Below, one piece after another: positions 2-15,188 of a DNA stretch of 58,844 nucleotides. The notes beneath the pieces were generated by a model, which saw nothing but the letters and a program-made list of their open reading frames with translations, had not been told where the DNA came from and ran no database searches. The translations under genes were made by a program, and so were the position numbers. Origin of the DNA: Spirochaetaceae bacterium (GTDB lineage Bacteria; Spirochaetota; Spirochaetia; DSM-27196; SLAA01); contig REEM01000124.1 in NCBI GenBank assembly GCA_007695055.1, positions 1 to 58,844 on the forward strand, in the 5' to 3' direction. Each line of letters starts with the position of its first letter. The first letter of the stretch is position 1.

Positions 2-730
2 CGTCACGGAAATGTGCGGTTCATCCTTCCTGCGCGGGCAATGAACATTGGGGCACAGATCAATATTGGAGTGCGCGAGTGCACAAGCGACTACGTATAC
101 GTGATCTGGAACGATATGCGCCTCATAGAGCTTTCGGAGCGTGCGCTGACCCGTGCAACTTCTGAAGACGTGCTGTGTAGCGCCCCGTACGTGCGAAATG
201 AACGTTCTCAGGTTATACCTACCGTCATGACTCCCGCCTTCGAAAAGAACCGTACTCTGCGCGTTTTGCCACAGGCGCCTCACAGTGAGACTGTCTTGAG
301 CCTGTATCCGTACGACTATGTCGGTCTCTACCAAACCAAGCGCTATCTGGATGTTTTTGGTTACGATGCACGTATTCACCGGCCCTACTGGCAAAAGCTT
401 GAGTTTGGGTTGCGGTGCTGGATGTGGAACGAGAAAATCCGCGTGAGTTCAGCGTTACGGGTCGCGTACACCGGCACTCCGCCATCCGACGACACCACCC
501 CAGATGCGGACTACTTGCGTTTCTACTGGAAGACCCTTGGTGTTAGATTATCCACAAACGGCGCGGACCTCAGCTCTCGACGGCTTATTGGGGGTATAGT
601 GAGAACGCCCAGCGCAGCACCCTCACTTATCAGATCTTTCCGCGAGTTGCGTCGTGAGTTCCGACGTTACGGGTCACGATACAAGAGGTCAGCACTGAGA
701 CTTATCTCAGAGTGGGAGGCAGATGCATGA
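2..730 (+). CDS. Glycosyltransferase family 2-like protein, C-terminal fragment (5' end outside window)
   Basis: The frame is open to the left edge, so the GTG at 14 is probably internal and the gene begins outside the window. The first residues (a NIGAQINIG stretch, then YVYVIWNDM) resemble the donor-site part of GT-A family 2 enzymes, where an N-x-G-x-N run precedes a hydrophobic strand ending in an acidic metal site. Here the metal site reads ND. The later part (YLDVFGYDARIHRPYWQKLEFGLR) looks like the acceptor-side D-x-x-Y-W-x-x-E-x-G-x-R region of such enzymes. It overlaps the next start as ATGA, so it belongs to the same operon as the sugar-activating genes downstream. A role in building a surface or flagellar glycan is inferred; the sugar is unknown. 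Confidence 0.55.
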   Translation, partial: RHGNVRFILPARAMNIGAQINIGVRECTSDYVYVIWNDMRLIELSERALTRATSEDVLCSAPYVRNERSQVIPTVMTPAFEKNRTLRVLPQAPHSETVLSLYPYDYVGLYQTKRYLDVFGYDARIHRPYWQKLEFGLRCWMWNEKIRVSSALRVAYTGTPPSDDTTPDADYLRFYWKTLGVRLSTNGADLSSRRLIGGIVRTPSAAPSLIRSFRELRREFRRYGSRYKRSALRLISEWEADA

Positions 731-1401
731 TTGCGGTATTTCTCCAAGCCCGATTGGGTTCTACCCGTTTACCACGGAAAGCACTCTTACCCTTGGGTGG
801 CGATACAGTTATCGGGCATGCAATGAACAACCTCCGGAAAATACATGCGGACGAGTTTTGGCTGCTGACTGACAAAGACAGCTATACAGAGCTTCAACCT
901 GTTGCAGCGGCACATTCCTTCGAGTGCCTAGCGGGTTCAAAGAACGACGTACTGCGCCGTTTTGTAGTGGCCGCTGAGAAGCTTGCTCCCGATCTCATCT
1001 TCCGTGCAACAGGAGATAACCCACTTGTTTCCGCTGAACTCGCCAACATGCTGCTTGAAGACCCCCGTGTACATGAATCTGCATACTCCGGCTATCTGGG
1101 TCCTCCCGTTGGGGTCGGTATAGAGCTCATCAATACCCATGCACTTTTGCAAGCTCACATTCGGGCCAAGTCGCACTACGACAGGGAGCACGTTACCCCA
1201 TATTTGTATAATCACCCGGATCTTTTTGAGGTACATCTTCCCCAAGCACCTGAGCAGTACTCCCTCCCGGAAGCGCGGGTCACACTCGACACGGTAAGTG
1301 ACTACCGACATCTCGAGCACATTTACGCCCAGCTCAGCAGTGATCAAGGAATGACCACCCTCCAGTTAATTAATTATCTACGCAACGGGCCGGGCGCGTG
1401 A
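727..1401 (+). CDS. SpsF-like cytidylyltransferase (CMP-sugar synthetase family)
   Basis: A 224-residue nucleotidyltransferase of the SpsF/NeuA/KdsB group, which joins CMP to an acidic sugar using CTP. The N-terminus carries the family signature QARLGSTRLPRK (residues 7-18), the CTP-binding loop. RATGDNPL near residue 96 fits the metal-binding GDxP region. The track begins at GTG 712, but ATG 727 is preferred: it overlaps the previous stop as ATGA and has GGGAGG just upstream. The product ends in a GTGA overlap with the next gene. Its neighbours (glycosyltransferase, SpsG-like protein, ATP-grasp ligase) point to activation of a nonulosonic-type sugar for a surface glycan. The exact substrate cannot be read from sequence. 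Confidence 0.8.
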   Translation: MIAVFLQARLGSTRLPRKALLPLGGDTVIGHAMNNLRKIHADEFWLLTDKDSYTELQPVAAAHSFECLAGSKNDVLRRFVVAAEKLAPDLIFRATGDNPLVSAELANMLLEDPRVHESAYSGYLGPPVGVGIELINTHALLQAHIRAKSHYDREHVTPYLYNHPDLFEVHLPQAPEQYSLPEARVTLDTVSDYRHLEHIYAQLSSDQGMTTLQLINYLRNGPGA

Positions 1402-3332
1402 GTCTTCATGATTCGCAGCACTCGATCATTCTTTTACTTCCCGAAACCTCGCCGGAACATGGATACGGCCATGTGACTCGGCTGCTCAGACTACGCCGAG
1501 AGTTGATACAGGAGCAGTCTGCCGAGCTACCATACGTAATGGTGGGGCTATGGGCACGTGATCTTGAACGCGAGGTACTGCGTGAACTGCTGCATTCGCA
1601 TCAGGTGCCGGAAGACTCAGTTGTGCTACTCGACGCCATGTCCGAAGGCAGACTCACTGAATTGCCATGCGACCTGCTGGTGCTCGACCGGCGAACCTTA
1701 CACCGTTCCTTTGTGGAAGAGCTTCGCAATGTTTGTGGTCATAGACCCTTTCTGCTGGGTTTGGACGCGGTGGGCTCCGGCGCCGAGCTGTGTAACTACG
1801 TCATAGACGGCTTCCCGCGGCTTAAGGGTTTGCGCGGTAACGAGCAGCATACAGCCTTCATTAGTTCCACTGCCGTCGGGCCTCCGAACCCGGCAAGGAA
1901 TAGTACCGCTCCTCACGACCGGCCGCTTCAGATCCTCGTCACCTTGGGAGCTTCGGGTGATGCATCTCGTGAAGCACGTCTCCTGCGTGCGCTCCATACA
2001 AGTAGGCAGCGACCGCTTCAGGTTCATATCTACGGCATAGAGGGGTCAGCCCAGCTATGCGACGAACGAGATGACATGCTGGTATATCGACATGGTTTTG
2101 ATCCAAGCCTGGCTATGCGCTTTTCAGAGTTCGACATCGTCTTCACTCATTTCGGAGTGACGGCTTATGAAGCCGCAGCGGCTGGGTGTGCGGTCGTGCT
2201 GTTGAACCCAGGTAGGTATCATGAGCAGCTCTCCCGATGTTCCGGTTTTGTCACCCTGCCATACGGCTGCTTTCCCAAGCTAAGGTGGCACCGTGTTCTC
2301 GCCAAACTATTTCGGAATCCAGGCTATGTCCAGGCTCGCAGCGCAGCGGTGCTTAATCCGAGGGGCCGAAGCACCACAGAGGTGGTACGAGATCTTGTGA
2401 GATATCGCACGGCACACATTGCAAACTCTCCCGAGAATGGAAACTTGGTTGGTTTCGCTCAATGCCCGGTTTGTTCCTCCAACTCACATTCGCTGCTGTA
2501 TCGCTTTCCCAGTAAGAACTATCTGCGGTGTCAAACCTGTGGTGTGCTTTTTATGCAGCGAGCTATAGCACATGACATTCAATACAACACTGAGTACTTC
2601 TTCCGTGAGTATGAAAAACAGTACGGTAAGAGCTATCTGCAAGACTTTCATCACATTAAAGGTATGGGCGCCTTACGAGTACAGCACATTAGGGATCTCC
2701 TGCATGGCTCCTTGCTGAGCGGTGCAGCCGCGCCTGTTGAGGCAACGTCTTTCTCCCTTTTGGACATTGGCTGTGCGTACGGGCCGTTTATGGCGGCAGC
2801 GCAGGAGGCGGGTGCTCAGAGTTTTGGGATCGATGTAGCCGAGGATGCGGTGCAGTATGTTGTCAATCAACTTGGCTTTCAAGCTGCATGCATTCCGGTA
2901 CAGGAACTGAACGCTTCTCGGCAATTTGGACAGGACTCATTTCATGTCGTCACGATGTGGTATGTTATCGAGCACTTCGAGCGGCTTGACCCGGTGCTGA
3001 AAGCAGTGGCGGGGCTCGTCGCCCCCCATGGTGTTTTTGCCTTTTCTACGCCAAACGGTACTGGAATTTCGGCTCGCTCCAACCACGAGCGTTTTCTGCG
3101 GAACTCACCGGAAGACCACTTCACGGTATGGGAAGCAAAGCGAACGGCCGGAATTCTCAGGCGATACGGATTCCGGGTAGAGCGTGTAGTGGTAACCGGA
3201 CATCACCCTGAGAGGTTCCCGTTTATGGGCCGTTGGGCAGGTTGCGCACCTGTGGGGTGGGTTCTCAATAAACTCAGTCGGCTCTTTGGCTTGGGGGACA
3301 CCTTCGAGGTCTACGCTCGCAGGGTCGAGTAG
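1398..3332 (+). CDS. Fusion: SpsG/PseG-like nucleotide-sugar protein + zinc-ribbon SAM methyltransferase
   Basis: A 644-residue two-part protein. Residues 1 to about 325 look like SpsG/PseG proteins (GT-B fold, nucleotide-sugar hydrolase or transferase): GYGHVTR at 22-28 matches the family G-x-G-H-x-x-R loop, and FTHFGVTAYEAAAAG fits the nucleotide-binding C-half. Residues from about 355 form a class I methyltransferase: a CPVC...CQTC zinc-ribbon comes first, then the SAM motif LLDIGCAYG near 455-463 and VVTMWYVIEHFE. Methyltransferases with such a ribbon occur in deoxysugar C-methylation, as with TylC3-type enzymes. The GTG start overlaps the previous stop (GTGA). In other bacteria I know these two activities only as separate proteins. 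Coupled processing and methylation of a sugar is inferred. Confidence 0.72.
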   Translation: MSLHDSQHSIILLLPETSPEHGYGHVTRLLRLRRELIQEQSAELPYVMVGLWARDLEREVLRELLHSHQVPEDSVVLLDAMSEGRLTELPCDLLVLDRRTLHRSFVEELRNVCGHRPFLLGLDAVGSGAELCNYVIDGFPRLKGLRGNEQHTAFISSTAVGPPNPARNSTAPHDRPLQILVTLGASGDASREARLLRALHTSRQRPLQVHIYGIEGSAQLCDERDDMLVYRHGFDPSLAMRFSEFDIVFTHFGVTAYEAAAAGCAVVLLNPGRYHEQLSRCSGFVTLPYGCFPKLRWHRVLAKLFRNPGYVQARSAAVLNPRGRSTTEVVRDLVRYRTAHIANSPENGNLVGFAQCPVCSSNSHSLLYRFPSKNYLRCQTCGVLFMQRAIAHDIQYNTEYFFREYEKQYGKSYLQDFHHIKGMGALRVQHIRDLLHGSLLSGAAAPVEATSFSLLDIGCAYGPFMAAAQEAGAQSFGIDVAEDAVQYVVNQLGFQAACIPVQELNASRQFGQDSFHVVTMWYVIEHFERLDPVLKAVAGLVAPHGVFAFSTPNGTGISARSNHERFLRNSPEDHFTVWEAKRTAGILRRYGFRVERVVVTGHHPERFPFMGRWAGCAPVGWVLNKLSRLFGLGDTFEVYARRVE

Positions 3333-3384
3333 TACGAGTCAAGTAGTAAAGGTCGTATAGGTAGCGTCGGGTGGGAGACAATCT

Positions 3385-5187
3385 ATGAGTTTGCACAATT
3401 CAGGAAACTTTGGCAGCATTGAGAACGGTCCAACCATACTCGTTCTTGGGGCATCGCTCATGCAAAGGCCAGCCTACGAAGCCGCACAACGCCGCGGTTG
3501 GCGAGCGGTCGCTGTTGACCGTGACCCGCATAGTATTTCCCGAGCACACGCAGCGGATTTCATACAGGCAGATATTTCTAATCACGAAGAGGTAACGCTG
3601 CTCGCCTCTGAGTATGCCACATCCCATCCGGTGCACGGAGTCTTTACCTGCGGTACAGACTTCTCATACACGGTAGCAGTTACTGCGGCGCGACTTGGAT
3701 TACCGGGAATGCCGCCGGAGGCGGCCTTGCGAGCAAGCAACAAGAAGCTCATGCGAGACTGCTTCCACCAGGCAGGAATCCCAAGTCCACGCCACCATGC
3801 GCTGTCAGATTTAACAGATGAATCGCTGGCCGCAGGCGCAACGGAGTTAGGCTTTCCTCTGGTTGTCAAACCGGTGGATAACATGGGCGCCCGCGGTATA
3901 CGACTGGTTCACGACAAGGATCAGCTTGAGACTGCGGTGCGGCTTGCCGTTGAGCAGTCCCGAACTGGGCGAGTAATACTGGAACAACTCATTGACGGCC
4001 TTGAGTACAGTATCGACGCCTTAGTCTTTGATGGACGAATCGTTATCGTCGGGGTTGCCGACCGCCACATTTTCTTCCCGCCATACTTTGTCGAGATGGG
4101 CCATACCATTCCAACCATGCTTTCCGGATCCAAGTACACCACCCTGATTGAAGGTTTTCGAAGCGCAGTGCGCGCACTAGGAATTGAGTATGGTGCTGCA
4201 AAAGGTGACGTCTTTTTGTCAAATGGTGAAGCGGTCGTGGGTGAGATTGCAGCCAGGCTCTCTGGCGGTTATATGTCCGGATGGACATTTCCGGCGGCCG
4301 CAAGGTTTGAACCGGTAGAAGCTGCAATGGAACTTGCGCTTGGTTTTCACCCGCGCAGTCTACCAGACTCTATTGATGACGTTCAGCCCCAAAAAACCTC
4401 GGCTGAACGCGCCTGGATCTCTATCCCTGGAACGGTTAAAGAAGTACTTGGGCTCCCTTCGGCCGACACCCTTTCCAACCGTTCCGTTGACGGAGCAGCT
4501 GAGCTCCCAATGAAAGATGGAGAAGTCGAGCTTATTGCTTGTTTCCCCCGTGCAACGCCCGGGGATTCGGTCTCGTTCCCCACCAATAATGTGGAAAAAT
4601 GTGGAAACATTATTACCTGTTCGCCGCAGCGGGAGAAAGCAGTTCAACAGGCGGAGACCATCACTCGCGCAATTGTGGTGCGACTTGAACCGGGGAATGC
4701 GCGCACCTTTGACTTCTTATTCGGGTCATCTGGCCATGAAGCTCCCTGGGCTTTCTGGCCGACACACCGGGAGAACGTGGACTGCCTTGCAGATATGCCG
4801 CGTTTCACAACATCGGCCGTCACTCCTTCCTCGGAAATCACGTCGTCACACACACAGCACCGTGGCAACTGCCGGACAACAATTTCAGTCGGATACCTAC
4901 CGTTGCCACATCCTGAGCGTGAGACCGCACCAGACTATAATGGACATACTCTTTGTGAGGTGCTCGACCTCTTGCGCTTGAGATACAAGGTTGCACCTCA
5001 GGTAGAGTTAACGGGGGGACAGTCGCTCCCAGGCCTTGTACTTGGGAGGGTTTTTTGGCGTGCACTGCTGAAAGGTGGACTACAGGGCGCGCTGTTTATC
5101 ATCGATACTATAAGCAGGGACGTACCCTCACATGAGGAACTTGCGCGGCTCACCGGTAGGTTATGGAACGACGACTTCGCACGATAG
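3385..5187 (+). CDS. ATP-grasp carboxylate-amine ligase-like protein with a long C-terminal extension
   Basis: A 600-residue protein. Residues 15-110 form the Rossmann-like pre-ATP-grasp domain (TILVLGASLMQRPAYEAA). Residues 115-320 contain ATP-grasp signatures: VVKPVDNMGARGIRL near 160-175 for the nucleotide loop and EIAARLSGGYMSG near 286 for metal binding, as in carbamoyl-phosphate-synthase-like ligases. These enzymes form amide bonds from a carboxylate and an amine through an acyl-phosphate. About 170 C-terminal residues have no domain I recognise. There is a good GGGAG site before ATG 3385. The end overlaps the amidase start by 25 bases. Given the neighbours, ligation of an amino acid to a sugar or peptide is a reasonable inference; the substrate is unknown. 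Confidence 0.68.
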   Translation: MSLHNSGNFGSIENGPTILVLGASLMQRPAYEAAQRRGWRAVAVDRDPHSISRAHAADFIQADISNHEEVTLLASEYATSHPVHGVFTCGTDFSYTVAVTAARLGLPGMPPEAALRASNKKLMRDCFHQAGIPSPRHHALSDLTDESLAAGATELGFPLVVKPVDNMGARGIRLVHDKDQLETAVRLAVEQSRTGRVILEQLIDGLEYSIDALVFDGRIVIVGVADRHIFFPPYFVEMGHTIPTMLSGSKYTTLIEGFRSAVRALGIEYGAAKGDVFLSNGEAVVGEIAARLSGGYMSGWTFPAAARFEPVEAAMELALGFHPRSLPDSIDDVQPQKTSAERAWISIPGTVKEVLGLPSADTLSNRSVDGAAELPMKDGEVELIACFPRATPGDSVSFPTNNVEKCGNIITCSPQREKAVQQAETITRAIVVRLEPGNARTFDFLFGSSGHEAPWAFWPTHRENVDCLADMPRFTTSAVTPSSEITSSHTQHRGNCRTTISVGYLPLPHPERETAPDYNGHTLCEVLDLLRLRYKVAPQVELTGGQSLPGLVLGRVFWRALLKGGLQGALFIIDTISRDVPSHEELARLTGRLWNDDFAR

Positions 5188-6218
5188 TATTTCTAGTCCT
5201 TATGGTTGCCCTCTTTGGCGGGCCGCTTTTTGGACAGCAGCTCAACACATTGACCGAGGAATACCTTACACTCGATCAACTTCTCAGTCGTACCGACGCT
5301 GTTCTGCAATGGAACGCGTCGGCAGGAGAAGGGGTGTTGCGCACACCACGTCTCACTCTTGGCTTCTTTGCAGACATGCCTTGGATCACCTTGGATTATG
5401 CGGAGTACCAACGAGCTACACCGGTCAGGTTTGAAAACGGCGAATTATTGTTCCCGGAAAGCTACCTAGGCATTCTTCAGAACGCCGGGCGTGGTATAGA
5501 TATGGGAACGATTGCCGATGGACGCAGGGTAGCGGCGATATTTGTCGATCCCGGTCATGGGGGACGGGATCCGGGAGCTATAGGAAGGCACACTATCAAT
5601 GGTTCCTTGTTCGAAATCTATGAGAAAGACATAGTTCTAGATGTCGGACTTAGGCTGTACACTCTCCTGAGGGAATCTTATCCTGATCGGCAGATAGCCT
5701 TATCTCGGGTAGAAGATACCTACCTCACGCTGGAAGAGCGTACAAATATGGCCAACGACATGGTTGTAGCAGATAACGAGGTTGTGCTTTTTGTCTCGCT
5801 GCACGCGAACGCTTCCTTAAACAATCGTGCAACCGGGTTTGAGGTTTGGTACCTTTCGCCTGAGGTTTCTCGTGGCGAACTCATATCGCGACGGCGCACG
5901 CAAGTAGATGATCCTGCCCTGATTTCTATTTTGAATACTCTTCGCGATGAGGAACTAACGATTGAAAGCATCTTGCTCGCACGCAGCGTCTTAGATGGCC
6001 TGGACGGCACCGTAGGTAGTATTGCGCCAAACAGGGGAATGAAGATGGAGTCATGGTATGTCGTGCGCAATGCCAAGATGCCGTCAATACTCGTAGAGCT
6101 AGGGTTTGTGACTAATCCTGAGGAAGCCATGCTATTGTCGCAGCCGGACTACTTGCACAAGCTGACGCGGGGCATTTATAATGGCATACATCAATTTATT
6201 ACTGATTTTGAAGAATAA
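5163..6218 (+). CDS. N-acetylmuramoyl-L-alanine amidase (Amidase_3, AmiC-like)
   Basis: A 351-residue exported zinc amidase that cuts the bond between N-acetylmuramic acid and the peptide stem of peptidoglycan. A signal peptide is visible (RRLRTIVFLVLMVALFGGPLFGQQ). The catalytic domain starts near 127 with FVDPGHGGRDPG (zinc His), continues with EKD near 156 (zinc Glu), SLHANAS near 212 (zinc His) and VELGFVTNPEEA near 310 (catalytic Glu). About 100 residues between signal and domain are unassigned and may be an AMIN-like targeting part. It starts inside the end of the ATP-grasp gene and is followed seven bases later by the GerMN gene. From memory, the amidase - small membrane protein - flaA order is also found in Treponema pallidum, hinting at a role in wall remodelling around periplasmic flagella or at division. 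Confidence 0.9.
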   Translation: MERRLRTIVFLVLMVALFGGPLFGQQLNTLTEEYLTLDQLLSRTDAVLQWNASAGEGVLRTPRLTLGFFADMPWITLDYAEYQRATPVRFENGELLFPESYLGILQNAGRGIDMGTIADGRRVAAIFVDPGHGGRDPGAIGRHTINGSLFEIYEKDIVLDVGLRLYTLLRESYPDRQIALSRVEDTYLTLEERTNMANDMVVADNEVVLFVSLHANASLNNRATGFEVWYLSPEVSRGELISRRRTQVDDPALISILNTLRDEELTIESILLARSVLDGLDGTVGSIAPNRGMKMESWYVVRNAKMPSILVELGFVTNPEEAMLLSQPDYLHKLTRGIYNGIHQFITDFEE

Positions 6219-6224
6219 AAGCCT

Positions 6225-6752
6225 ATGAAACATCGCCGACGCCTGGCACGATCTCAACAACAGCTTTGGACCATTTGTCTGGGTCTACTCGCAGGCACCT
6301 TTGTGGTTTCGCTTGTATTCTTTTTTCTTTTCCGCAGTCCAATGCACTATCAGATTCTGTTCTTCCCTGATATACGCACTGGAGAGCTTTCCGGCGAGCG
6401 CCGAATGCTTCCGCGTCTGAGTAACAGCAAGGATGCAGCACGCCAACTGGTGGAGGAAATTATTTTGGGCCCGGTAGACATTCAACATTCCAGGGTCGCT
6501 CCTCGTAGCACAATCATTCGTACCTTGGTGGTACGTGATAGAGTGCTCTACTTAGATCTTAGTACCGATATTCTTCATGAAATTGAGGATGAAGACGCCT
6601 TTTTTGCAATACAGAGGGCATTTGAACACACAATTCGCTTTAATTATCGTACAATACGGGAGATAGTGTTCACGGTAGACGGTCAGGAACCAGGCGCAAC
6701 GCGCTACATTAGCTGGCGCACCATGGACGGAACAAGTCCGGCTTCACTCTAA
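6225..6752 (+). CDS. Membrane-anchored GerMN domain protein
   Basis: A 175-residue protein with one N-terminal membrane anchor (about residues 15-40, WTICLGLLAGTFVVSLVFFFLF) and an extracytoplasmic GerMN-type domain. The domain is marked by LVEEIILGP, the strand VLYLDLSTDI, a helix FFAIQRAFEHTI, then IREIVFTVDGQEPG. GerMN domains occur in spore germination protein GerM and in many proteins of non-sporulating bacteria, often beside cell-wall amidases. It sits seven bases after the amidase stop and probably shares its mRNA. A periplasmic role in peptidoglycan binding or amidase control is inferred; no catalytic residues are evident. Confidence 0.75.
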   Translation: MKHRRRLARSQQQLWTICLGLLAGTFVVSLVFFFLFRSPMHYQILFFPDIRTGELSGERRMLPRLSNSKDAARQLVEEIILGPVDIQHSRVAPRSTIIRTLVVRDRVLYLDLSTDILHEIEDEDAFFAIQRAFEHTIRFNYRTIREIVFTVDGQEPGATRYISWRTMDGTSPASL

Positions 6753-6802
6753 GGAAACCGGCTTCACAATAGGGGCATTCGTCTAAAATGGGGTGAAACT
6801 CG

Positions 6803-6830
6803 TTGACAAATGAAATGTCATCCATATAAT
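6803..6830 (+). promoter_or_regulatory. Sigma70-type promoter of flaA
   Basis: TTGACA at 6803-6808 and TATAAT at 6825-6830 with a 16-base spacer are both perfect consensus boxes. The flaA start is about 54 bases downstream. This fits an abundant structural protein made from a housekeeping promoter. Confidence 0.85.
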
Positions 6831-6883
6831 TTAGCCTGTACGCACACAATGTATTGGGCTGGAATACTTACAAGGAGAAGGGG

Positions 6884-7891
6884 ATGAAACGGTTTTTCGT
6901 TCTATTGCTCGTGTTGCTGGCGGCGGTCGCTATGCCTGGCTTCACGCAAGAGTCTACACTTATCGACTTTTCTGAATTGCTGGCGGACTGGCCGCCTGAT
7001 AATCCTAGGGATAGTGAAGCGACTCTGCTTGACTATAGTCACATCGCTGGAGCAAGCGTGAGCGCGGACGACCGCGCACTCATGAAGACTTCCTTGGCGA
7101 TCAACAACTGGGATGTCGAACTCAACTCATCGGCACGCACCGTGCTACGACAAGGCAACACTCAGGTTCGGCAAGCTGTCGTTCGTGAAGGTGCCTCGCA
7201 GTTCGAGGGCGAGGGTGTCATGGGTATTCGGGTTTCATTCCCGACCGAGCCTTTTAACGCTTGGGCCCTGATTCGACCTCCGTTCGAGATCCCGGCATAC
7301 GCCGATATCGACGAGATTCAGCCGGATGGAACCATGGAGGTTCCGCAGGAGGAACAGGGGCGAGGTCGCAAGTATGACAACAAAGGCGTGGTTAAGAACG
7401 TCGGAACACTCCGAACCGTTACGGTCAACGTCTACGGGCTGAACTACCCGCACGGTTTAAGCGTGATTCTTCAGGATGAAAACAACAGAACTCAGGAAGT
7501 CTTCATGGGTTACCTGAACTTCGACGGTTGGCGTGAACTGACTTGGGAAAATCCCAACTACGTTACAGAGGTTCGTCATCGCGAACTGCGACAGTTTCCT
7601 CTGTATCCACAGCTTGCACCTATGAGGAAGCTGGTTGGTATGCGCGTCTACCGTGATGGTGCTCAGATTGGTGGTGATTTTGTCTCCTACATAAAGGACA
7701 TCAACATCACGTACGATTTAGCAACACTTGAGGTCGAGCGTGACATTGATGACGAAGCAGTTTGGGGTCTTCTCCAAGAACGTGAGACTGCACGACGTGA
7801 AGCTGAGCTTCGACGACTGGGTAATATTCAAGTTCTCCGATTCCTTGAAGAGCAAAGAATGTATCCGGGCCCGGACGCTAACGACAACTAA
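6884..7891 (+). CDS. flaA: FlaA-like periplasmic flagellar sheath protein
   Basis: A 335-residue exported protein of the spirochaete FlaA family, which coats the FlaB core of periplasmic flagella. A signal peptide is clear (MKRFFVLLLVLLAAVAMPGFTQE). The mature part has the family pattern: LIDFSEL near the start, GIRVSFPTEPFNAWALIRPPFEIP, then LRTVTVNVYGLNYPHGLSVILQD and a C-terminal YIKDINITYD strand. The track begins at ATG 6854, but ATG 6884 is chosen: it has AAGGAG at the right distance and begins the signal peptide. It has its own consensus promoter and a strong terminator, so it is probably monocistronic. FlaA paralogues are common, so this may be one of several. Confidence 0.85.
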   Translation: MKRFFVLLLVLLAAVAMPGFTQESTLIDFSELLADWPPDNPRDSEATLLDYSHIAGASVSADDRALMKTSLAINNWDVELNSSARTVLRQGNTQVRQAVVREGASQFEGEGVMGIRVSFPTEPFNAWALIRPPFEIPAYADIDEIQPDGTMEVPQEEQGRGRKYDNKGVVKNVGTLRTVTVNVYGLNYPHGLSVILQDENNRTQEVFMGYLNFDGWRELTWENPNYVTEVRHRELRQFPLYPQLAPMRKLVGMRVYRDGAQIGGDFVSYIKDINITYDLATLEVERDIDDEAVWGLLQERETARREAELRRLGNIQVLRFLEEQRMYPGPDANDN

Positions 7892-7993: not shown

Positions 7994-8887
7994 TTATCGG
8001 GCCCTGCTTAGTCGCGCTAAATCTAGAACCAGGCCGACATTCATAGTGTACATAAACTCTTCGCCAATAGACTCGCCAGCAAGATCTTCGCGACCTAACG
8101 TGAAAATGGCCGCGCTCATACCTATGGTACTGCTCAGACCGGGCCGATGCTGGACGAGAATTGAAGGTCCAAATACAAGACTTCCGGTTCGTACTTCAGT
8201 GGCTGTATCCTCAAACTCCAGAATACGGTCCTGATAGCCAAGCCTCAGCGTTACCCTATAAGGCACGTTTTTCTGGAATATTTCGGTGTACACCGCATAT
8301 TCTTGCTTTCGTTGCAACCGCAAAAACAAGGACTCACGTTCGCGATATGTGCTCCGGCTCCATTCAGCGCCAATAAGATAGCCATCAAAAAAGATTGCAC
8401 CACGGACACCGTCGTATGATTGGTTATTGTCACCGGGGTCCGATAGTCCTGTGAGAAAGGGTCGCATGAGCGAGAATTCAAGCTCAGCACGATCGAGTAT
8501 AAAGAAGCCAATGGAAGATCTGACTCCTGGCGATACCGGGCGACCAGAACTGTTGAGTAGTCCCATGGTGGGGGTAACGGAGAAAAATACGCGGTCATCA
8601 CGGTAACCTAAGCCAGCGTAACCTAGCGTACGTAACTGTAAGTCACGCTCTATGCCATATGCTAAGCGAAGCCCGTAGGGAAGACTTGTTATTCCGGAAA
8701 GCTCGAAACCGGCGACATAGAGGTCACTCTCAAGTTCCAGGTCATTTGGACTCCGATCTACAGCAAACTCTTGGTTTCCCAGGGTGAACCCGAGAGTTAA
8801 CTCTGTTGCAAGCGCCTGAAAGGATACGCATACGCCTATCATGAGCGTTGCTATTGCCACCATGCGTTTTTTCGTTTGGTTCATCAT
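7994..8887 (-). CDS. Unrecognised exported protein, probably an outer-membrane beta-barrel
   Basis: A 297-residue protein I do not recognise. It has an N-terminal signal peptide (KKRMVAIATLMIGVCVSFQALA). The rest is rich in alternating strand-like segments (LTLGFTLGNQEFAV, LRLAYGIERDLQL, YRVTLRLGYQDRILEF, YTMNVGLVLDLARL) typical of small beta-barrels. No cysteine-based lipobox is present. Its start overlaps the stop of the upstream gene in ATGATGA, so the two are translationally coupled and probably work together in the envelope. A barrel fold is inferred from the pattern only. Confidence 0.6.
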   Translation of the reverse strand: MMNQTKKRMVAIATLMIGVCVSFQALATELTLGFTLGNQEFAVDRSPNDLELESDLYVAGFELSGITSLPYGLRLAYGIERDLQLRTLGYAGLGYRDDRVFFSVTPTMGLLNSSGRPVSPGVRSSIGFFILDRAELEFSLMRPFLTGLSDPGDNNQSYDGVRGAIFFDGYLIGAEWSRSTYRERESLFLRLQRKQEYAVYTEIFQKNVPYRVTLRLGYQDRILEFEDTATEVRTGSLVFGPSILVQHRPGLSSTIGMSAAIFTLGREDLAGESIGEEFMYTMNVGLVLDLARLSRAR

Positions 8888-10053
8888 AACTCCGTAGCGA
8901 AACTAAACACGCCGGTGAAGGATTGCAGATTCTCATAGGGGTAGATCTGTGTTTCAAGGGCGAGCTCCCAGGAATAGCCTGGTACACGTGACTTGATAAA
9001 AGGTGAGAGTCGTACCGACAACTGTTCGGCATCTGGATCGCGAGGTCTAAAGCGAAAGCCGTTACGAATACCTCCAGCAAGACCGGTGCGATCCAGCCGT
9101 GCGATCATGGCTTCCAACTGTATGTCGCTGTAGCCTTCGGCTTCTGTGAGCCTTTGTTCATACACGGTCGGGTGCCAGAAGAAGGTGAGCGCAAACCAAA
9201 TCGGCCGGAGGTATAGGCGTGGTTCAAACAACAAGAAAAGGTCTTCAGCTGATATGCTGTCCATGGGCTGCCATGCGGGGAGCGCTATTTGGGCAAAAAA
9301 CTGCGCAATGCTTCCGTTGTCAAAAAAAAGCATTGTACCAGCTCTGTAGCGCCCGGAATCTCCATAAGGATAGCTGGCTCCGACAAAGCTGTCGACGGAC
9401 AATCCTTGTGACCCAAAGAGGAGACGCAGGTCGCTGGAGTAGCGGTTTTCCCGCTTCAACCGAGGGTCAGCATAGGTGTATCCGCGAAGCTCCCAAGTTT
9501 CGCTCAAACGACCGGTGGTGAGTCTCAGGCCTTGGCCATATACGGAATGAAGACCGTCATATACAGGAATACTGGTCTCTCGAAAATAGCGCATCCCGCG
9601 CATGTCTGAAGCAAAGTAACGAAGGCCAAATCGAGACGGAAACTCCCGTCCTGTTCCAAAACGATCGGAATCGCCTATGAAGTATCGCAACTCCAGGGGA
9701 GTTCCAAATAGCGAACGCGAACCAAGGTAAACGCCCGACAAATAGATAGGGTGAAGACCCGGCAGCGGTTGTTGGTCAGGATCGACGGGAGCGTTCGGAA
9801 CGGGTCCATGGAGAAAGTCAGCGGTGTAGGCGCGTAATAGGATTCCTGTTTCAATTCCTGTGTGAAAATTCAGTTCAAGGTCAAGGTCTACCGCACCTTG
9901 AATCACGAGCTCGTCGTTTTCTACTGATGCAGAGCTCAGTACCTCGAGTCGGGGAGCTGGCTGACTGAATGTCTCTTCAACGCCATAAACAGGTGCGACC
10001 ATAATCAAAAGCACCGCCAACCAAGGCGCTGAGCGCAATATACCTAAACTCAT
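8884..10053 (-). CDS. Unrecognised exported protein, possible outer-membrane protein
   Basis: A 389-residue protein whose start I place at ATG 10053, not the track start 10326. The ATG has AAAGGAA upstream, begins a good signal peptide (RSAPWLAVLLIMVAPVYG), and the longer reading would run into cheA. The mature part has many amphipathic strand-like stretches ending in aromatic residues, such as LELNFHTGIETGILLRAY, LRYFIGDSDRF and PIWFALTFFWHP. It ends GVFSFATEL, with a hydrophobic C-terminus as in barrels. I do not recognise a family. It is the first gene of a two-gene operon that runs divergently from the chemotaxis operon. Confidence 0.6.
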   Translation of the reverse strand: MSLGILRSAPWLAVLLIMVAPVYGVEETFSQPAPRLEVLSSASVENDELVIQGAVDLDLELNFHTGIETGILLRAYTADFLHGPVPNAPVDPDQQPLPGLHPIYLSGVYLGSRSLFGTPLELRYFIGDSDRFGTGREFPSRFGLRYFASDMRGMRYFRETSIPVYDGLHSVYGQGLRLTTGRLSETWELRGYTYADPRLKRENRYSSDLRLLFGSQGLSVDSFVGASYPYGDSGRYRAGTMLFFDNGSIAQFFAQIALPAWQPMDSISAEDLFLLFEPRLYLRPIWFALTFFWHPTVYEQRLTEAEGYSDIQLEAMIARLDRTGLAGGIRNGFRFRPRDPDAEQLSVRLSPFIKSRVPGYSWELALETQIYPYENLQSFTGVFSFATEL

Positions 10054-10075
10054 TGGTTTTTCCTTTATCCGGTAT

Positions 10076-10103
10076 AGTTTAGCCCGAAATCTCCGCAGTG
10101 CAA
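10076..10103 (-). promoter_or_regulatory. Candidate promoter of the two-gene outer-membrane operon
   Basis: Read on the minus strand, TTGCAC (10098-10103), a 16-base spacer and TAAACT (10076-10081) lie about 25 bases before the start at 10053. The match is moderate. No equally convincing promoter was found for cheA in the same intergenic stretch. Confidence 0.4.
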
Positions 10104-10196
10104 AGAGTTGTGAGCAATGCGACCGGCGCACATTGACATTATCGTACCGAAAACTTCTTGACTTAAAGGGGTGTATGTATAAGTATGGGAGCAAGC

Positions 10197-12623
10197 ATGA
10201 GTGACTACCTGGACCCCCAAAACGAAGAGTTGCTAAATGATTTTTTCGTTGAAGCTGAAATGCAAATTGAGAGTCTCGAGAGCAACATCCTTGTTCTTGA
10301 GAATGACACCAACAATTCAGACGCAATCGACGAAATCTTTCGCGCTGCCCACACCCTAAAGGGAGCCTCGGCCACGGTGCAAATGAGCGAACTTGCCGAG
10401 TTCACTCATCTCGTGGAAGATGTGCTAGATGGAATCCGTGAAGGCAAAACAGCCGTTGATGGTGATGTTGTCGACGTTCTTCTTCAGGCCATTGATATCA
10501 TTAAGGAAATGATACAGACACGGCGTGAGGGCGACATTTATTCCGGTGACATTACTTTGCTCAAAGAAGCACTGAAGGCGATACAACAGAGCGTTGACGC
10601 GCCAAAAATCGCACCAAAACAATCGGAACACGCTTCTGCTCCGTCGTCTCCGGCGTCTCCTCCATCACCAACACCAAGCACAGGAACAGTACCGGCTTCT
10701 GGTACAGGCCTTTCGGAGTACGAGTACCTAGAGTTGAAAGAGGCAGCTGATGGTGGTGTTCCGGTACTGTGCGTTCGAGTAACCTTTAATGAAGACAATC
10801 CTATGAACACCGTCGGCGGAATTCAGGTTTTCGCCGCTTTGCGCTCAATTGGAACAGTTCTCAAGACCACGCCGGATTTCGAAGCTCTGTACGAAGACGC
10901 CTTTTATGAGCATGTGGACTATTATGTTACCTGCCGTCTTACTGTAGCCGAGATTCAAGAAGCAGTTCATATTTCCGACGTCACGCTTGCAGTTGATGTA
11001 GTTGAGGTTGTGCCAGGAGCTGAGCAGGCGGCCGATCCAGTGGCAGATACCGCGCCAACTGACGCGACTGCTGGTGAAACGCCAATAGAAGAAGTTGAAT
11101 CCAAGGTGCAGATAGCGGAGAGCCCGGTAGAACCAGCCCGTGATACCACTCAGTCCGCAGATGAAGATGAGCCTGACGAAGTGCAGGTTGCGGCAGCGGT
11201 ATCTGGCATTCGAGAAGAGGCACGTCGGACAACCCATGGATCTATACTGAGGGTCGACAGTCGCCGAATTGATAATCTTCTTAACTTGGTCAGTGAAACC
11301 GTCATCACAAAAGCCACTTTTAATCAGCTGAGCAATAGATTCACCGAAACACTTGTAGAATTTCAAGGATATCAGTCAACCTTACGGAATCAAGTCAAGG
11401 AACTATTTGACTCCATGCCGGACTATCTGGAGCGAGCCGCAAGCGGGGCCTCGATCAAAGACCTCCGGCGGGAAATCTCTACCCGGTATGAAGATATTTA
11501 CTCTACATTCGATCCCTTTCAGAGCAGTTTCAAGGGAACAATTGCCAAGTACCGCAATACGGCCCAGAATCTTGGTCGCATTACCGGAGAACTTCAAGAA
11601 GGGGTAATGCGGATTCGCATGGTTCCTATATCGCAGATTTTCTCACGTTTCCCGCGGCTCATTCGTGACCTATCGAAATCGCTCAAAAAGAGTATTGATT
11701 TGAAGATCGAAGGTGAAGATACCGAGCTTGATAAGTCGGTCATTGAAGATCTTTTGGATCCTTTGCTGCACTGCGTGCGTAACTCACTGGATCACGGTAT
11801 TGAGACTCCCGAACAACGCCGTGAGGCGGGTAAAAGCGATGCGGGTTCCTTGACACTCAAGGCTGGCAATGAAGGCAACATGATACTCATTGAGATCATT
11901 GACGACGGCAAGGGTATTGATGTTGACGCGGTCAAAGCCAAAGCGGTTGACCGCGGTCTCGTTCATCCCAGCAAGACACTCACTGACATTGAGGCCTTTA
12001 ATCTCATATTCCATCCTGGTTTCTCAACCGCCTCGAAAATCACCAACGTTTCGGGACGCGGTGTTGGGCTCGACGTCGTTAAGCGACAGATAGACAAACT
12101 CAACGGCGAGGTTACGGTTTGGAGCGAACGTGGAGTAGGTACCCGTTTCACCATTAAAATCCCATTGACGCTTGCTATTATTCAGGGGCTACTGGTGCGG
12201 GTTGGCAAAGAAATCTACGTGATTCCAATTACCTCAGTGATTGAGAGCCACCGAATCAAGCCTTCTGAGATCAAAATGCTTGATAATTACGAGGTATTTA
12301 ACGTCCGGGACGACGTTATCTCACTACTGCGGCTGAATCACCTGTTCAAAATCCCCAGTGAAGAACAGCGCGAACACTACTTTGTCGTAATCGTTGGGAG
12401 CGGTGATAAGAAAATGGGCTTAATTGTTGATTCTCTCATTGGCGAAGAGGACGTGGTAATAAAGCCTTTACGAGATCATTTTACCAACTCACCTGGAATC
12501 GCCGGAGCAAATATTACTGGAGATGGTACGGTATCGCTCATCATAGATGTAAGTCAGTTACTAGAGCTCGGCTTCAGGAATGAGTTGGAGCAACGTAAGC
12601 GTCGCGAAACCCAAATACGATGA
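10197..12623 (+). CDS. cheA: Chemotaxis histidine kinase CheA
   Basis: An 808-residue CheA that phosphorylates CheY to control flagellar motor behaviour. Domains in order: HPt with HTLKGASA (phospho-His near 52); a Ser/Pro-rich linker near 145-165; a middle domain (EYEYLELKEAADGG... to about 280) in the P2 position; an acidic linker; dimerisation helices near 345-480; the ATPase with N-box LLHCVRNSLDHGIE near 522, DDGKGID near 568 and GRGVGLDVVK near 619; and a C-terminal CheW-like domain from about 665. The start is ATG 10197 with GGGAG upstream, four codons inside the track ORF. Promoter signals are unclear: TTGACT at 10158 and TATAAG at 10178 are spaced only 14 apart. It is the first gene of cheA - cheW/R - cheX - cheY. 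Confidence 0.95.
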   Translation: MSDYLDPQNEELLNDFFVEAEMQIESLESNILVLENDTNNSDAIDEIFRAAHTLKGASATVQMSELAEFTHLVEDVLDGIREGKTAVDGDVVDVLLQAIDIIKEMIQTRREGDIYSGDITLLKEALKAIQQSVDAPKIAPKQSEHASAPSSPASPPSPTPSTGTVPASGTGLSEYEYLELKEAADGGVPVLCVRVTFNEDNPMNTVGGIQVFAALRSIGTVLKTTPDFEALYEDAFYEHVDYYVTCRLTVAEIQEAVHISDVTLAVDVVEVVPGAEQAADPVADTAPTDATAGETPIEEVESKVQIAESPVEPARDTTQSADEDEPDEVQVAAAVSGIREEARRTTHGSILRVDSRRIDNLLNLVSETVITKATFNQLSNRFTETLVEFQGYQSTLRNQVKELFDSMPDYLERAASGASIKDLRREISTRYEDIYSTFDPFQSSFKGTIAKYRNTAQNLGRITGELQEGVMRIRMVPISQIFSRFPRLIRDLSKSLKKSIDLKIEGEDTELDKSVIEDLLDPLLHCVRNSLDHGIETPEQRREAGKSDAGSLTLKAGNEGNMILIEIIDDGKGIDVDAVKAKAVDRGLVHPSKTLTDIEAFNLIFHPGFSTASKITNVSGRGVGLDVVKRQIDKLNGEVTVWSERGVGTRFTIKIPLTLAIIQGLLVRVGKEIYVIPITSVIESHRIKPSEIKMLDNYEVFNVRDDVISLLRLNHLFKIPSEEQREHYFVVIVGSGDKKMGLIVDSLIGEEDVVIKPLRDHFTNSPGIAGANITGDGTVSLIIDVSQLLELGFRNELEQRKRRETQIR

Positions 12624-15114: not shown

Positions 15115-15188
15115 TGGGCGGTAATGGATTTGAACCATCGACCCCATGCATGTCAAGCATGTACTCTAACCAACTGAGCTAACCGCCC
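15115..15188 (-). tRNA. tRNA-Val (anticodon GAC)
   Basis: Read on the minus strand, the 5' arm GGGCGGT pairs with ACCGCCC near the 3' end. The D-arm is TAGCTCAGTTGGTTAGAG. The anticodon stem CATGC/GCATG encloses the loop TTGACAT, giving GAC (codon GUC, Val). The T-arm is GATGG-TTCAAAT-CCATT. The CCA end is not encoded, so it must be added by a CCA-adding enzyme. Confidence 0.93.

Follow-up and report, generated by a model that had tools for sequence, protein, structure and literature searches.

The window, i.e. the whole stretch of DNA analysed (58,844 nt; contig REEM01000124.1 of the Spirochaetaceae bacterium assembly GCA_007695055.1, host genome label G000), carries at its left end the following genes and domains:

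2..730, plus strand: GT-A-fold glycosyltransferase-like protein, predicted from the ORF and from a structural model compared using Foldseek; open at its 5' end (gene 1)
712..1401, plus strand: SpsF-like CMP-sugar synthetase, family match to CTP_transf_3; sole PF02348 member (gene 2)
1398..2432 (boundary approximate), plus strand: SpsG/PseG-like UDP-sugar hydrolase domain, profile match and GxGHxxR motif (gene 3, N-terminal part)
2433..3332, plus strand: zinc-ribbon-like CPVC...CQTC segment and SAM methyltransferase, family match to Methyltransf_23 (gene 3, C-terminal part)
3385..5187, plus strand: ATP-grasp carboxylate-amine (amide) ligase, ATP-grasp_4 and LAL_C2 with structure matches (gene 4)
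5163..6218, plus strand: Amidase_3 (N-acetylmuramoyl-L-alanine amidase), ORF and family match
6225..6752, plus strand: Germane-domain protein, family match and conserved neighbour
6854..7891, plus strand: FlaA flagellar sheath protein homologue, named in a preliminary description of this DNA and a conserved neighbour

The ORF listing and the family matches confirmed the four genes of the preliminary description, with one correction: gene 1 is truncated. The SpsG-like and methyltransferase parts were encoded as one polypeptide (gene 3, 1398-3332), and the start of gene 2 was either at 712 or at an ATG at 727, within an ATGA overlap with gene 1. The FlaA homologue, which forms the downstream end of the conserved block described below, may start at an internal ATG near 6884.

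Gene 1 was cut by the contig end, the window holding the C-terminal 242 of about 343 residues. Its N-terminus and the preceding spiro-SPASM gene were found on a second contig of this genome (C60), the end of which overlapped the first 9 bases of the window (9 bp common to both contig ends). No family match to gene 1 was obtained in the family profile search; the AlphaFold model of a full-length relative (pLDDT 81) gave polypeptide GalNAc-transferases as best Foldseek matches (E 6e-12). From the GT-A fold of this modelled relative, gene 1 is predicted to be a glycosyltransferase by fold, the name already given to it in the preliminary description; its catalytic activity is uncertain, since the DXD position was not strictly conserved (WNDM, WSTM, WNTI). 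In the spiro-SPASM protein, the SPASM cysteines were invariant in the conservation list, and the radical-SAM motif CX3CX2C was carried by 45 of 79 relatives and absent from the protein of the host genome, where the sequence reads AAVEVSTARAQSVTYLPK; the motif has been lost repeatedly, and is retained in the cultivated, non-pathogenic Gracilinema caldarium. The literature search gave no paper on spiro-SPASM.

Gene 2 matched CTP_transf_3 (2.4e-29), with the SpsF motif Q-A-R-x-x-S-x-R-L-x-x-K conserved in the alignment of its relatives, and the C-terminus of gene 3 matched Methyltransf_23 (2.3e-17), bearing out the SpsF-like CMP transferase and the methyltransferase part of the fusion noted earlier. 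The SpsG/PseG-like half showed weak similarities (single-sequence PseG match, 0.0089; profile against the PseG structure 3hbm, 7.5e-4) and a GxGHxxR motif present in 81 of 84 relatives. Among the ORFs of the relatives, fusions of the SpsG::methyltransferase type (67) and of the SpsF::SpsG::methyltransferase type (16) were counted, the latter being a single polypeptide in Treponema denticola and other Treponema.

Gene 4 encoded an ATP-grasp_4 domain followed by LAL_C2 and by a C-terminal extension of low conservation (about residues 460-600). The L-amino-acid ligases BL00235 (3vot) and BacD (3vmm) were among its best sequence and structure matches and have the ATP-grasp fold and LAL_C2 in common with it, whereas the window ligase is only about 20% identical to them, has the extra C-terminal segment and reads EIAAR at the E-x-x-x-R signature. 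The window ligase shares the ATP-grasp catalytic core and LAL_C2 of the L-amino-acid ligase family, which does not imply amino-acid substrates. The closest structures were carboxylate-amine ligases of the L-amino-acid-ligase type, and not members of a known unrelated pathway. The ligase of a more distant lineage carried a fused FMN 2-hydroxyacid dehydrogenase whose motif looked intact, and the dehydrogenase fused to it in Brachyspira-like relatives was degenerate. Such fusions would be compatible with a 2-hydroxy or 2-oxo acid substrate. The C-terminal extension of the window ligase may be what is left of such an FMN dehydrogenase domain, as its GG-L/I-Q-G motif would suggest.

The NeuB/PseI-like synthase and the aminotransferase that the preliminary description had proposed looking for were both present in the host genome: a NeuB/SpsE synthase with a SAF domain (contig C245:60581; PF03102, 3.8e-56), whose closest structure was Bacillus subtilis SpsE (1vli, 6e-44), and a PseC-like gene adjacent to a PseB-like gene on contig C115. 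The PseB-like protein (168.7 bits, cut-off 407.75) and the PseC-like protein (330.9 bits, cut-off 423.5) were family members below the equivalog cut-offs, which leaves the exact sugar and its stereochemistry open. A second PF03102 match (C176) was rejected as a nonulosonic synthase, being a DAHP synthase/prephenate dehydratase fusion. Four homologues of Maf-type flagellin glycosyltransferases (PF01973, about 580-620 aa) were also found, one of them with additional weak matches to FlagModPseD and Maf_flag10_N. Beside the genes inspected there was no GNAT gene for an N-acetyltransferase of the PseH/LegH kind.

The order spiroSPASM-GT-SpsF-SpsG::methyltransferase-ATP-grasp-amidase-Germane-FlaA recurred across Spirochaetales and Treponema. 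Of the order-level loci inspected, 20 of 20 had the block, the amidase being undetected in some, and it also appeared in most of 80 named loci, where the contig reaches; this recurrence means that the arrangement is not due to chance, and the proposed connection with the amidase-flaA block holds from the genus of the window to Treponema. The T. denticola genome (ATCC 35405, G194), in which 15 of 15 tested published primers had a match, carried the whole module and NeuB, with the ligase at C1:2247684-2249003 unlinked to the remaining module genes, as in a T. pallidum-like genome, and located away from the amidase and FlaA. In several termite-gut Treponema the ligase was kept with amidase-Germane-FlaA and the other four genes were elsewhere; three of these MAGs had the ligase and no spiro-SPASM over the cut-off, perhaps through incompleteness.

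Of the flagellated spirochaetes sampled outside the Borrelia-like family, 20/20 had an orthologue of the ATP-grasp ligase, against 0/19 of the Borrelia-like genomes and 0/15 of those lacking flagellin (0/34 together). Maf homologues occurred in 15/15 of the genomes that have the module and in 0/5 of those that lack it. These counts overstate independence, since the absences amount to at most about three loss events. The SpsE-like NeuB and spiro-SPASM had the same distribution as the ligase, barring weak generic NeuB or partial matches. Apart from the Borrelia-like group, almost all swimming spirochaetes have retained this gene set. The 25 bp overlap between the ORFs of the ligase and the amidase, and the arrangement in the termite-gut Treponema, would agree with a ligase working with the amidase, the Germane protein and FlaA in the cell wall or in the passage of flagella through it, the adjoining sugar genes being separate; this is improbable, considering that the ligase is separated from the amidase and FlaA in T. 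denticola and that the Borrelia-like genomes, which are flagellated, lack the ligase, NeuB, spiro-SPASM and Maf alike.

The motifs VEVSQL and DRIAS are glycosylated in Treponema flagellin (PMC7431986). Both motif serines were kept in most flagellins of the module-bearing genomes (the Brachyspira-like flagellin had lost one of them), and both were replaced in four Borrelia-like flagellins (IEIEQL/NRIAD). According to PMC9481697, which cites Kurniyati et al. 2017, filament assembly and motility of T. denticola depend on the 450.2 Da glycan of its FlaBs, and the glycosylated Treponema protein is the flagellin core FlaB, as also given in PMC13144727 (citing Wyss 1998). As far as this evidence goes, neither a surface glycan nor the FlaA sheath, which the preliminary description had considered, is the target. 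In B. subtilis, homologues of SpsE, SpsF and SpsG make the legionaminic acid of the spore crust, SpsC homologues are likewise common to both systems, and the part of PMC7439481 available describes no ATP-grasp ligase or SpsG/methyltransferase fusion. This pathway lends some plausibility to a surface or outer-membrane product (capsule or LPS-like) instead of a flagellin glycan, an explanation which is very improbable given that SpsF was the only PF02348 cytidylyltransferase in a genome-wide profile search of the host, that Maf homologues co-occurred exactly with the module in the genomes tested, that sampled spirochaetes without flagellin lacked the module and that the acceptor serines covaried with it.

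Gene content, co-occurrence with flagellin and covariation of the acceptor serines, all observed directly, as was gene order, make the locus very probably part of a flagellin nonulosonic-acid pathway. The preliminary description had suggested an amino-acid-modified nonulosonic sugar of flagella; its nonulosonic-acid pathway and flagellar target stood (NeuB/SpsE, the PseB/PseC-like pair, Maf homologues, flagellin co-occurrence and acceptor serines), while an amide of a methylated polyhydroxy acid became more likely than an amino-acid modification. The T. denticola glycan is reportedly built on a nonulosonic acid, to which a methoxylated hexanoyl (methoxy-trihydroxyhexanoyl) group is joined as an amide; it would need one O-methyltransferase and one amide ligase. 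The computed mass is 450.185 Da for a nonulosonic acid bearing one acetyl group and one methoxy-trihydroxyhexanoyl amide; the mass of the FlaB O-glycan fits a nonulosonic acid with an amide of a methylated acid, the kind of product that a methyltransferase and a ligase would give. None of the papers found in the literature search gave the acyl structure. T. denticola has the same module and NeuB, and a close relative (G049) has Maf homologues; it differs from the window in the unlinked ligase and in SpsF, SpsG and methyltransferase being one protein.

The reported methoxy polyhydroxy acid, the fit of the computed mass and the ligase fusions to a 2-hydroxyacid dehydrogenase-type domain in distant relatives argue against the ligase adding an amino acid (e.g. 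glutamate) to be N-methylated by the methyltransferase, as in the N-methyl-glutamyl group of Clostridium botulinum Leg5GluNMe7Ac proposed as a model in the preliminary description. That sugar does exist (PMC13317340), and the nearest solved structures of the ligase (3vot, BacD), together with its LAL_C2 domain, speak for an amino acid; however, the gene reported for C. botulinum is orthologous to PtmH (PMC13317340), whereas the methyltransferase here forms one protein with SpsG, joined in Treponema by SpsF too, so that this alternative is unlikely.

In Shewanella oneidensis, sfmABCDE (PMC3765264), needed for normal flagellin modification and motility, encodes a PseI-like SfmA N-terminus, the methyltransferase SfmD and the ATP-grasp_4 ligase SfmE; likened here by gene type and not by orthology, it differs from the window in having a TPP enzyme and a reductase, no SpsF/SpsG or spiro-SPASM, and a methyltransferase unfused to SpsG. 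In Clostridium difficile, the PF13535 ATP-grasp protein CDR20291_0245 is needed for an amide-bearing type B flagellin glycan (PMC5207246), but extends a rhamnose-containing glycan not shown as a nonulosonic acid. SfmD, SfmE and CDR20291_0245 can be regarded as precedents for the proposed pathway.

Overall, the locus is proposed to be the core of a spirochaete-wide pathway making and tailoring CMP-nonulosonic acid (pseudaminic/legionaminic type) for flagellin O-glycosylation (probability about 0.72). We infer the substrates and the order of action of the ligase and the methyltransferase as follows. The PseB-like dehydratase and the PseC-like aminotransferase would produce a UDP-2,4-diamino sugar, from which UDP would be removed by SpsG before condensation to a nonulosonic acid by NeuB/SpsE. 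The ATP-grasp ligase, which probably acylates this sugar, would then replace the usual acetyl group with an organic acid, attached at a free amino group that would be N7 if T. denticola is a guide; the methyltransferase would O-methylate that acid (or the sugar), SpsF would form the CMP-sugar and a Maf transferase would attach it to the flagellin core serines. The odds that the acyl group is a methoxy-polyhydroxy acid are about even; by the T. denticola analogy it would be 2-methoxy-4,5,6-trihydroxyhexanoic acid, i.e. reduced and O-methylated 2-keto-3-deoxygluconate. More tentatively, the pan-spirochaete ligase might link such a hexonic acid, O-methylated and derived from 2-keto-3-deoxygluconate, through an amide to the amino group that a nonulosonic acid of the pseudaminic type carries. 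The acid would be supplied and activated by an assembly line of SpsF, SpsG and methyltransferase together with a ligase::2-hydroxyacid-dehydrogenase fusion of ancestral origin, and Borrelia would have lost pathway, transferase and acceptor serines together. We know of no such modification of one sugar acid by another elsewhere.

The gene set is not pathogen-specific, since it is present in this uncultivated spirochaete, which has a sediment-derived nearest relative. If the proposed pathway is right, the essential flagellin glycan of spirochaetes, Treponema included, would have in this locus a candidate for its genetic basis, and the ligase and methyltransferase would be the two enzymes behind its unusual acyl group. 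The retention of these genes, often beside flaA, by flagellated spirochaetes other than the Borrelia-like ones could then also be put to the test, as could the loss of both acceptor serines from the Borrelia-like flagellins.

Four same-direction genes were called in the first 5.2 kb of the window, the left end of one of the 245 contigs of a 3.43 Mb genome:

2-730, forward strand: 5'-truncated gene, an ORF with no family match
712-1401, forward strand: SpsF-like CTP_transf_3 protein (2.4e-29, domain search)
1398-3332, forward strand: 644-residue protein with an SpsG/PseG-like N-terminal half and a Methyltransf_23 C-terminal half
3385-5187, forward strand: ATP-grasp protein of 600 residues

An alternative ATG at 727 would give the SpsF-like gene a tight ATGA overlap; at the other end, an amidase gene overlaps the ATP-grasp gene by 25 bp, and a Germane-domain gene and flaA come next. 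The SpsG half matched the PseG model weakly in a single-sequence search (0.0089), its family profile matched the PseG structure 3hbm (7.5e-4), and the GxGHxxR motif was present in 81 of 84 relatives. The sole Rfam match within the window was a single tRNA gene (15115-15188, reverse strand).

In relatives, a “spiro-SPASM” gene (TIGR04321, 8.6e-129), often preceded by a divergent xseA, lies directly 5' of the gene truncated here. This side of the locus sits on another contig of the same genome (C60): the reverse complement of its end reads ...ACGTCACGG, the window starts ACGTCACGG, and both align consecutively to one and the same relative, so that the locus reads xseA (divergent), spiro-SPASM, glycosyltransferase-like gene, SpsF, SpsG-methyltransferase, ATP-grasp, amidase, Germane, FlaA. 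The AlphaFold model of a full-length relative of the truncated gene (pLDDT 81) matched GT-A glycosyltransferases in Foldseek. The metal-binding DXD was not strictly kept in the alignment of relatives (variants WNDM, WSTM and WNTI), so the protein is possibly degenerate, and this glycosyltransferase-like product may either work without metal or have no catalytic role. Where GT2 enzymes have their DXD region, the 2-730 product and its relatives had an invariant Trp; the Asp was not conserved. The SPASM cysteines of spiro-SPASM (229-1560 of L155, a piece of C60) and its relatives were invariant. Its radical-SAM CX3CX2C motif (CPQxCxYC) was found in 45 of 79 relatives, and was absent from the aligned proteins of the window's genome, T. 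denticola and G086, a 1.14 Mb genome called T. pallidum-like on account of its size; the catalytic cluster has been lost recurrently while the protein was kept.

The ATP-grasp protein had a match in all 31 genomes of the order-level sample (weak or fragmentary only in G019). Gene order was identical in 20 of 20 fetched loci, with the amidase undetected in some; together with the ORFs and domain matches, this establishes the four-gene locus of the preliminary description as real. A species-genome scan gave 80 named loci, from Spirochaetales MAGs to Treponema ruminis, T. brennaborense and Gracilinema, most of which kept the whole order where the contig extended far enough; the closest named relative was Spirochaetales bacterium CSSed162cmB_373. 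Several termite-gut Treponema had the ligase with amidase-Germane-FlaA and the other four genes grouped elsewhere. In T. denticola and G086 the ligase was unlinked, and SpsF, SpsG and methyltransferase formed one polypeptide (862-881 residues). This triple fusion occurred in 16 of the examined ORFs and the SpsG-methyltransferase fusion in 67; because they are fused, the hydrolase, methyltransferase and cytidylyltransferase are suggested to work toward one product.

The same genome held further pathway genes: on C245 a NeuB/SpsE synthase, whose closest match of known structure was B. subtilis SpsE, adjoining PseB-like dehydratase and PseC-like aminotransferase genes on C115, and four PF01973 Maf-type proteins. 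The PseB-like and PseC-like proteins scored under equivalog cut-offs, so the sugar may have either pseudaminic or legionaminic configuration. The window's SpsF was the only PF02348 protein in the genome and is therefore the likely pathway partner of NeuB; judged from gene content, the flagellin nonulosonic-acid pathway appears nearly complete.

Fifty-four genomes were checked for flagellin, and ATP-grasp orthologues (at least 272 bits) were found in all 20 flagellated genomes outside the Borrelia-like family, 0 of 19 Borrelia-like genomes (about 1 Mb, flagellated) and 0 of 15 genomes of two families without flagellin, one Sphaerochaeta-like (family labels inferred from pattern and genome size), counts that overstate independence, as the absences represent at most about three loss events. 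Genomes lacking the module scored no higher than 74 bits for ATP-grasp. SpsE-like NeuB and spiro-SPASM were distributed likewise, except for weak generic NeuB matches in two Sphaerochaeta-like genomes and weak partial spiro-SPASM matches in two genomes, and Maf homologues occurred in 15 of 15 module-bearing genomes vs. 0 of 5 others. The T. denticola flagellin motifs VEVSQL and (D/N)R(I/V)AS are reported to be glycosylated (PMC7431986). Their serines were kept in flagellins of most module-bearing genomes (only that of the second motif in the Brachyspira-like flagellin), and four Borrelia-like flagellins had IEIEQL and NRIAD at these motifs. Flagellar nonulosonic-acid glycosylation, a guess when the locus was first described, is well supported by these acceptor serines, the co-occurrence with flagellin, and NeuB, PseB/PseC-like and Maf proteins.

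The ligase was modelled confidently as an ATP-grasp fold (pLDDT 85); its closest structures were 4dim, a putative phosphoribosylglycinamide synthetase, and the L-amino-acid ligases 3vot and BacD. In some other spirochaete lineages, the ligase formed one polypeptide with a lactate dehydrogenase/MftD-like domain of the FMN-dependent 2-hydroxyacid dehydrogenase kind:

L163 (more distant lineage, G034), 8416-10659: HGGR motif present, apparently intact (SNHGGR)
L161 (Brachyspira-like, G108), 8173-10341: HGGR absent, degenerate

These fusions are compatible with, though no proof of, a ligase substrate that is a 2-hydroxy or 2-oxo acid. Molybdenum hydroxylase/xanthine-dehydrogenase-type genes lay directly 3' of the PseB-like/PseC-like pair in two genomes and are conceivable candidates for an oxidase making the ligated acid:

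L183 (piece of C115), 3067-7044: large-subunit gene followed by those of the 2Fe-2S and FAD subunits
L187 (G086), 9051-12589: set following the pair

Shewanella sfmD/sfmE (PMC3765264) offer a precedent for a methyltransferase and an ATP-grasp protein in a flagellin glycan cluster, and C. difficile has a known ATP-grasp protein for its flagellin glycan (PMC5207246). The 450.2 Da glycan on the T. denticola FlaB proteins is essential to motility and to assembly of the filament (PMC9481697); all 15 tested primers of that paper matched T. denticola ATCC 35405. This genome contained the spiro-SPASM, glycosyltransferase-like and SpsF-SpsG-methyltransferase block, the ligase and NeuB. Kurniyati et al. 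reportedly described the glycan in 2017 as a nonulosonic acid of pseudaminic configuration bearing one acetyl group and, at N7, a 2-methoxy-4,5,6-trihydroxyhexanoyl amide. This composition computes to 450.185 Da, and by formula the acyl acid is 2-keto-3-deoxygluconate reduced at C2 and O-methylated. The ATP-grasp ligase would form the amide bond to the organic acid and the methyltransferase the O-methyl, the glycan's two unusual bonds. On this reported structure and computed mass, the amino-acid (N-methyl-glutamyl-type) modification initially proposed is not preferred to a methylated polyhydroxy-acid amide, and we infer that ligase and methyltransferase serve the acyl group. As far as checked, this putative assignment, the spirochaete-wide module, its flaA link and its shared distribution with Maf and the acceptor serines are new.
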